Part shown: one piece after another, positions 3,766 through 4,754 of the stretch
Numbering within the stretch: the first letter of the stretch is position 1
How the letters are laid out: each line of letters opens with the position of its first letter
IMG/VR virus record: IMGVR_UViG_3300028394_000287
Span: 1-25,540 of that record
Length of the DNA stretch: 25,540 nucleotides
Strand: one strand, 5' to 3'
Source of the DNA: a virus
Program-made: the position numbers and the translations under genes
The notes under the pieces: generated by a model
Told to the model about the DNA's origin: nothing
The model's input: the letters and a program-made list of their open reading frames with translations, nothing else
Database searches by the model: none

Positions 3766-3796
3766 AAGCCCAGTCACTTGCACTGGGTTTTTTTTT
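3766..3796 (+). terminator. Rho-independent terminator of the first early operon
   Basis: CCCAGT (3769-3774) pairs with ACTGGG (3782-3787) around CACTTGC and is followed by nine T residues (3788-3796). The stem can extend through the preceding AAG by A-T and G-T pairs. It lies 48 bases after the last gene of the early block. Confidence 0.9.
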
Positions 3797-3835
3797 GTGT
3801 TAGGGTTATCCCTGTTGCCGTAGGAAGCAGCTAAG

Positions 3836-3903
3836 AAGGCTTACTCATGCACCTGCCCCAATATACCGGGGTTCCTACCGGGTGCAGCAGTAAGCCTTTT
3901 TTG
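3836..3903 (+). ncRNA. Multi-stem structured element ending in a T-run
   Basis: A perfect 10-bp outer stem, AAGGCTTACT (3836-3845) with AGTAAGCCTT (3889-3898), encloses TGCACC (3848-3853) with GGTGCA (3881-3886). That in turn encloses CCCC (3856-3859) with GGGG (3868-3871). Six T residues (3897-3902) follow. Three nested stems are more than a simple terminator needs. It may be the 3' end of a small RNA or a second strong terminator. The pairing is seen; function is inference. Confidence 0.5.
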
Positions 3904-4146
3904 TTTTCTGGTAGCCGCACTCCTCGCGAAGAAGTGGGCCTAGATGGGCCGCAGGGAAGGAAACATCGGCCTGGGAGTACCACCCTCAGCGAGCCGCGCA
4001 GCGTTCCAGAGCGACTGCACAAGCACTAGCCCTCCTGGGTGGTCTCAGGTCTAGTGTGAATGAATCTGGCGTCAAGCGAGCACTGGCAGGAACCATCTGT
4101 ATGGATGAGTGACCCTGCGGGTGAGGCGGTAGGGCATACCACCTTG
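3904..4146. other. Gene-free, hairpin-rich GC-rich segment (candidate ncRNA or cis element)
   Basis: No credible protein is encoded here. Stems visible include GGCC...GGCC near 3937-3950, CACTAG (4024-4029) with CTAGTG (4051-4056) enclosing CCTG/CAGG, CCAT-ctgt-ATGG (4093-4104), ACCC-tgc-GGGT (4112-4122), and GGTA with TACC near 4129-4140. The density of local stems and the high GC relative to flanking leaders suggest a structured RNA or an origin-type element. It does not look like tRNA (no TPsiC arm), and I found no hammerhead core. Confidence 0.4.
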
Positions 4147-4148
4147 GA

Positions 4149-4180
4149 TATACTATTGTCTAAATCTTATCTATAGAGGT
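4149..4180 (+). promoter_or_regulatory. Probable promoter -10 and leader for the DNA methyltransferase gene
   Basis: TATACT (4149-4154), one base, TTGTC (4156-4160), then ATCTTATCTATAGAGGT (4164-4180) precede the ATG. The same arrangement recurs at 4749-4783 with TCTAGT, one base, TTGTC and ATCTTATATCTATAGGT, which supports a shared promoter/leader. No good -35 is seen 17 bases upstream here. Confidence 0.45.
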
Positions 4181-4183
4181 CGT

Positions 4184-4729
4184 ATGAGAGTTCTAGTTGC
4201 CTGTGAATACTCCGGTGTAGTGCGAGATGCTTTCACCGCTAAAGGTCACTACGCCATGTCCTGTGATCTTCTGGACACAGAGAAACCGGGACATCACTAC
4301 AAAGGTGATGTGACCAACATCCTCAACGATGGATGGGATCTGATGATCTGTCATCCACCCTGTACTCACCTCGCAGTCTCTGGGGCCAGGTGGTTCAAGG
4401 AGAAGCAGGCAGAACAGAAGGAGGCTCTGGAGTTTGTAGAGCTGCTGCTCAATGCTCCTATCCACAAGATCTGTTTAGAGAACCCTATTTCCATTATCAG
4501 TAGCAGGATCAGAAAGCCTGACCAGATCATCCAACCTTGGCAGTACGGTCACGGTGAGACCAAGGCAACGTGTCTGTGGTTGAAGAACCTACCATTACTC
4601 AAACCTACCAATATCGTAGAGGGTAGAGAGGCACGGGTTCACAAGATGCCTCCTAGCCCCAACCGTTGGAAGGAGAGATCTAGGACCTTCCAAGGCATCG
4701 CTGATGCTATGGCTCAACAGTGGGGTTGA
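4184..4729 (+). CDS. DNA cytosine methyltransferase-like protein
   Basis: 181 residues; ATG after AGAGGT. The N-terminus MRVLVACEYSGVVRDAF fits a SAM-binding motif I (loop after a beta strand), with SCDLLD as the acidic second strand. HPPCTHLAVSG (about 57-67) carries the Pro-Cys motif whose Cys60 would be the C5-cytosine nucleophile, and LENP (98-101) matches the Glu-Asn motif that binds the target cytosine. PWQYGHGETKATCLWLKNLP follows. It is much shorter than typical C5 methyltransferases (over 300 aa) and lacks an obvious target-recognition domain, so it belongs to a compact phage family often annotated as DNA methylase. Likely role: protecting phage DNA from restriction; activity not certain. 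Confidence 0.7.
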   Translation: MRVLVACEYSGVVRDAFTAKGHYAMSCDLLDTEKPGHHYKGDVTNILNDGWDLMICHPPCTHLAVSGARWFKEKQAEQKEALEFVELLLNAPIHKICLENPISIISSRIRKPDQIIQPWQYGHGETKATCLWLKNLPLLKPTNIVEGREARVHKMPPSPNRWKERSRTFQGIADAMAQQWG

Positions 4730-4754
4730 CACTCTTTTTTTTTTCTGTTCTAGT
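4726..4754 (+). promoter_or_regulatory. Candidate promoter upstream of the recombination operon
   Basis: TTGACA (4726-4731) overlaps the methyltransferase stop and is followed after 17 bases, mostly T, by TCTAGT (4749-4754, 4/6 -10). The leader after it (TTGTC, then ATCTTATATCTATAGGT) matches that before 4184. The T-rich spacer could also bend DNA. Confidence 0.55.

Follow-up and report, generated by a model that had tools for sequence, protein, structure and literature searches.

The leader of the Escherichia coli alpha operon (S4) carries a nested pseudoknot at the ribosome start site. In phage HK022, the putL and putR elements act on RNA polymerase as nascent RNA alone (PMC9378689); put spans about 70 nt, folds into two stem-loops and is present in two copies per phage, with putR about 270 nt behind PR (PMC9378689). 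Among other phage RNAs, GOLLD and ROOL are often found near tRNA islands (PMC12286853), and the manA and wcaG motifs precede metabolic genes in cyanophages (PMC2864571).

The viral DNA analysed here (IMG/VR record IMGVR_UViG_3300028394_000287, 25,540 nt, hereafter the window) contains a gene-free segment at 3797-4183 that the original prediction regarded as a candidate structured RNA or cis element. Homologues with compensatory changes confirm this proposal: as established by sequence comparison, positions 3813-4158 of the plus strand encode a single conserved RNA, about 340 nt long, that folds into two domains and contains three pseudoknots, and the existence of a conserved structured RNA in this stretch is practically certain. 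No Rfam family reaches its gathering threshold in the window, nor on the element in 18 homologous loci, and relaxed thresholds gave no plausible match (GOLLD, ROOL, manA, wcaG, riboswitches and ribozymes included). As anticipated, ARAGORN detects no tRNA in the window, and 3797-4183 holds no credible protein: the ORFs tested have no family match, among them a 60-aa ORF overlying the RNA, and no missed protein emerged.

Architecture and covariation of the RNA

In folding energy, the region stands out only mildly (z = -1.85 for 3826-4183 and z = -0.30 for 3904-4145), so that the fold of a single sequence is no proof of a functional RNA; the structure is considered real because its homologues covary, not because of its energy. 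In a MAFFT sequence alignment (A1), which was not fitted to the structure, the 5′ domain (P0, PK0 and PA1-PA3; 26 sequences) shows 94.0% of cells paired versus 71.5% when shuffled, and a covariation score of 0.652 versus 0.217, whereas the corresponding figures for the 3′ domain (hp1, hp2, P3, hp4, hp5, hp6, PK1 and PK2; 48 diverse sequences) are 85.3% versus 66.0% and 0.543 versus 0.192. The compensatory changes that had been proposed as a check at related phage loci are present in 29 of 32 pairs of the 5′ domain and in 32 of 40 pairs of the 3′ domain. Sliding the 3′ domain by 1-3 columns leaves 37-46% of cells paired, and slid controls over both domains 36-48%; the window and one homologue guided the choice of alignment columns, and this biases the fraction of cells paired, not the compensatory counts, toward the unslid version. 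All the stems named in the original prediction occur where it had placed them, but the three pseudoknots (PK0, PK1 and PK2) had been overlooked.

Upstream of the RNA, and outside it, lies the expected intrinsic terminator of the preceding genes (3766-3796, plus strand), a hairpin at 3766-3790 followed by a T-run. A putative sigma70 promoter for the RNA (3778-3806, plus strand) is formed by TTGCAC (3778-3783), a 17-nt spacer and the extended -10 element TGT-TAGGGT (3798-3806), its -35 box overlapping this terminator. The TTGCAC-17-TAGGGT site is absent from the output of a general promoter scan of the window, and the promoter is therefore deduced from homologues: across 47 of them, the sigma70-like score exceeds that of shuffled sequences, which preserved base composition only, by 0.79 ± 0.12 upstream of the RNA, compared with -0.11 ± 0.07 inside it and a somewhat raised +0.41 downstream. 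Transcription of the RNA would probably start at this promoter of its own, in the same direction as the genes behind. Several phages also show a second promoter-like site directly 3′ of the RNA. In relatives a second promoter comes immediately after the RNA, whereas in the window itself a methyltransferase gene has apparently been inserted between the two (4184-4754; second promoter TTGACA at 4726-4731 and TCTAGT at 4749-4754), with a CTTATCTATAG-like sequence on both sides.

The RNA opens with hairpin P0 (GTTGC/GCAGC, 3814-3831, plus strand, as are all the elements below; 90.8% of cells paired, 4 of 5 pairs compensatory), the loop of which holds the 5′ strand of PK0. This pseudoknot joins GTAGGAA (3820-3826) to TTCCTAC (3872-3878), with 97.3% of cells paired and compensatory changes in 6 of 7 pairs, and occurs among homologues in many differing versions, each fully complementary. 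Domain A (3836-3898) is the three-level nested hairpin of the original prediction, which proved exact: PA1 (3836-3845/3889-3898, 10 bp, perfect), PA2 (3848-3853/3881-3886, 6 bp) and PA3 (3856-3859/3868-3871, 4 bp), followed by a terminator-like U-run (TTTTTT, 3897-3902). PA1 and PA2 together show 98.3% of cells paired and compensatory changes in 15 of 16 pairs.

Taken alone, domain A fits the pattern of an intrinsic terminator, a GC-rich hairpin plus U-run (3836-3902), and the whole element could be read as an attenuator-type terminator in ordinary tandem with a structured UTR (domain B) unrelated to it. Such an arrangement is very doubtful, given that both domains co-occur across very diverged phages and that the U-run, common in the family, is not universal. 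The domain A helix stands with no U-run behind it in L160, L139, L194, L213, L149, L178 and L223. Because several clades drop the U-run yet keep the helix, termination at this point is probably not the conserved function.

Domain B starts with hp1 (CGC-ACTCCTC-GCG, 3916-3928; 94.3% of cells paired), whose loop (3921-3924) pairs with 3954-3957 to form PK1 (3921-3957), a helix for which complete two-strand swaps are found (GACT/AGTC in L225, AGAT/ATCT in L205, TGGT/ACCA in L204 and GGG/CCC in L240). Next come hp2 (GGCC-TAGATG-GGCC, 3937-3950; 97.4%, 3 of 4 pairs compensatory) and P3 (3967-3971/3992-3996; 81.6%, 4 of 5) enclosing hp4 (3972-3975/3985-3988; 81.0%, 4 of 4), the latter with a near-invariant ACCC in its loop, then hp5 (3998-4018; 86.5%, 6 of 8). 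Hairpin hp6 (4024-4056; 77.4%, 6 of 6), the CACTAG/CTAGTG stem exactly as first described, exposes in its loop the conserved GGTG of PK2, in which GGTGGT (4038-4043) pairs with ACCACC (4138-4143). PK2 covaries as well, with swaps among homologues such as GGGAGG/CCTCCC and GGTGAT/ATCACC; a direct parse of the helix, which picked the best 6-bp match per sequence, is illustrative only. The small hairpins noticed earlier at 4093-4140 are present, but they fall in the most variable part of the RNA (4060-4137), where neither sequence nor length is well conserved.

The 3′ end is the conserved motif ACCACC-TTGGATATACTATTG-TCTAAA (4138-4164), composed of the PK2 strand, an SD-like G-rich box, a start-codon-like ATG or TTG, and NCT AAA. 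At the RNA level the end reads CACC-CUUGGGGAA-CUAUG/CUAUUG, the run CACC-CUUGGGGAANCUAU being near-invariant and followed by G (ATG type) or UG (TTG type) and by NCUAAA. The letters of the motif look like a ribosome start site and resemble the elemental pause consensus as well. Among 62 distinct 3′ ends, ATG occurs in 38 and TTG in 17 at the same place, with NCT AAA next in matching frame, and the TTG types of the window's clade often have a better SD (GGAGG). Domain B could then be a 5′ UTR that recruits or gates ribosomes, controlling the first start codon in the way of an IRES or a riboswitch, with PK2 placed just upstream of the G-rich box and the genes behind reached by reinitiation; in some phages (L221, L231, L249 and L224) the first gene does begin exactly at the motif. 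Such a translational role is the leading alternative to the reading proposed below but still unlikely: most members have, from this start, an ORF for only a short, unconserved peptide, and the frame changes even between close relatives; the downstream genes are unrelated, and the second promoter of several phages would yield mRNAs devoid of the RNA. In the window, a possible mini-ORF (TTG TCT AAA TCT TAT CTA TAG, 4156-4176), of a length and frame that vary among homologues, stops 7 bases before the methyltransferase start codon.

Distribution and genomic setting

When loci that encode relatives of the neighbouring methyltransferase were compared by profile, four of them matched, one with the RNA at the same place as in the window (L002, 88% identity) and three where the element sits elsewhere in the locus (L019, L036 and L040). 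A pattern built from these four retrieved at least 119 stretches in IMG/VR, and a second one, derived from the 3′ end, retrieved 67, of which 57 lacked the first pattern. By profile search, the RNA is present in 182 loci from the IMG/VR scans, one copy each, which correspond to at least about 175 contigs, as a few were fetched twice; they belong to uncultured phages and offer unrelated gene contexts. A covariance model of domain B only (R1) added a diverged member (L027, E 1e-11) and found exactly one copy in each of the 20 contigs of at least 31 kb. An exclusive partnership with the methyltransferase was discarded, as the RNA lies within 3 kb at only about 6 of 79 related methyltransferase loci and occupies other positions in other phages. 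Among cultured phages and plasmids there is a single record, the metagenome-derived MW202674, in which three opposite-strand hypothetical proteins are annotated over the RNA (L264:5007-5377), probably as annotation errors. In prophages, the core pattern had no match in 84,980 genomes, and the sole match of the 3′-end pattern (L263) was dismissed as chance, since it falls within the coding sequence of a gene and no RNA surrounds it. Two further loci (L208 and L211) retain the 3′ motif, their upstream part being coding or unrecognisable, as if recombination had supplied another front half, and one RNA-bearing contig also harbours a type II hammerhead ribozyme above the Rfam gathering score (L161:4195-4256, minus strand).

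The genes behind the RNA differ in kind (an O-like replication protein, a helicase, an HNH-like protein, a protein of about 2000 aa), and on this ground a gene-specific riboswitch was rejected. In orientation, the first ORF reaching 100 aa is co-directional with the RNA in 36 of 42 cases downstream and in 21 of 40 upstream, by mechanical ORF calls that likely make some of the exceptions spurious. In most near-complete genomes, the RNA heads a lytic operon of about 30 kb, often with a cro-like gene on one side and an O-like gene on the other. In the circular MW202674 and in G012, G014, G015, G018, G020 and G022, it sits where the main unidirectional operon begins or no more than about 2.3 kb away, and adjoins a short divergent operon; G021 and G023 are exceptions, in which it is not at an operon head. 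The leftward operon has no second copy at its head. In the window, about 4 kb of co-directional genes follow the RNA, and then convergent structural genes; a GP88-family protein (PF17338) is encoded at 899-1576.

A free, trans-acting phage RNA, with or without a protein partner, either co-transcribed and processed or of about 90 nt and ended at the U-run of domain A, would agree with the putative promoter, the very high structural conservation and the U-run found in most members. This role is improbable: domain B has no conserved terminator behind it, several clades keep helix A with no U-run, most loci lack an accompanying protein family (those seen are ordinary early genes), and downstream genes are strongly biased toward the direction of the RNA.

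Of 33 members of the cro-like HTH family, 32 are encoded directly upstream of the RNA on its strand, and of 49 members of the O-like replication family, 45 lie downstream; these counts are not independent, as many RNA-bearing genomes are related. This O-like gene, often directly behind the RNA, together with the single copy per genome, would suit a replication primer or origin transcript of the ColE1 RNA II type, in which the fold would hold the 3′ end hybridised to its template near replication genes. There is little chance of such a role, as other phages have unrelated genes behind the RNA and GC skew tracks gene orientation with no independent sign of an origin. To our knowledge, no persistent-hybrid or RNase H site has been described for this RNA.

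A candidate role in cis on RNA polymerase

The single copy, the own promoter, the co-directional but unrelated downstream genes and a place like that of nutR or putR argue for an action in cis on the transcript or the polymerase, and not on one gene. From its genomic position, the RNA probably controls transcription of the main gene block, and among the specific guesses first made, an operon-heading cis element is better supported than a free small RNA or a sponge. The mechanism put forward, tentatively and with somewhat less than even confidence, is that the nascent leader, in the manner of HK022 put yet through an unrelated fold, acts in cis on RNA polymerase; the step from position to antitermination is one that we infer. 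The RNA would fold during its own transcription, first domain A, locked by the loop-loop pseudoknot PK0, and next domain B, PK2 closing when the polymerase stands about 14 nt beyond, on a pause-like sequence (GGGGAACCTAT-G). The completed fold would alter the elongating enzyme, leading to read-through of terminators and pauses in the long operon, and the start-codon-like 3′ end may load a ribosome behind it. Sense-strand intrinsic terminators do occur within the long operon; three genomes share the same strong one (CCACCC...GGGTGG plus T-run), some 15 kb beyond the RNA (G014 11845, G015 33270 and G020 16069).

Several points stand against antitermination: about 70 nt suffice for HK022 put, a fifth of the length seen here; antitermination has no need of the ribosome start site that the 3′ motif also fits; several phages have a second promoter-like site behind the RNA; G021 and G023 depart from the usual position, co-directional genes in the window extend for only about 4 kb behind the RNA, and the leftward operon lacks a copy. 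A bolder proposal is distinctly unlikely, namely that these large nascent phage RNAs form a new class able, by themselves, to reprogramme the host polymerase and also to load the first ribosome at their 3′ end; if true, processive antitermination and translation start would be joined in one element.

Comparison with described systems

No prior description of this RNA was found in a search of the open-access literature. The family appears to be undescribed and absent from Rfam 15, whereas phage leader RNAs as a kind have precedents. The R1 model of domain B found no true match in the HK022 early region (26000-40751; best hit 7.9 bits, E 0.11, on the other strand), and because of this result and the lack of an Rfam match the RNA is filed under neither put nor any other family.

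With GOLLD and ROOL it shares the character of a large multi-pseudoknot phage RNA (PMC12286853), but it matches no Rfam family and the window has no tRNA. Like manA and wcaG (PMC2864571), it is a structured 5′ leader known almost only from metagenomes and phages, although it precedes unrelated lytic genes and matches neither model. In the case of a translational role, the alpha-operon leader would be the model, with no sequence match in the comparison through Rfam. By position, between cro and O on the rightward operon, the RNA resembles the nutR/tR1 region of lambda, where, in contrast to this large fold, nut consists of a short boxA-boxB site dependent on protein N. It also resembles HK022 put, likewise a phage leader RNA at the head of early operons (a setting found here in most near-complete genomes, with exceptions) that acts as nascent RNA on the polymerase, which is only proposed for the RNA described here; put, which suppresses termination through the zinc-binding domain of the polymerase beta′ subunit, has two stem-loops and two copies, as opposed to about 340 nt, three pseudoknots and one copy. 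This large and intricate RNA, kept at one copy per phage, occurs across uncultured phages that have diverged widely. Should its target be the ribosome, it would be an IRES-like element of phages; should it be the polymerase, it would solve the put problem, antitermination by RNA alone, a second time and in an unrelated way; the covariation model makes both ideas directly testable.
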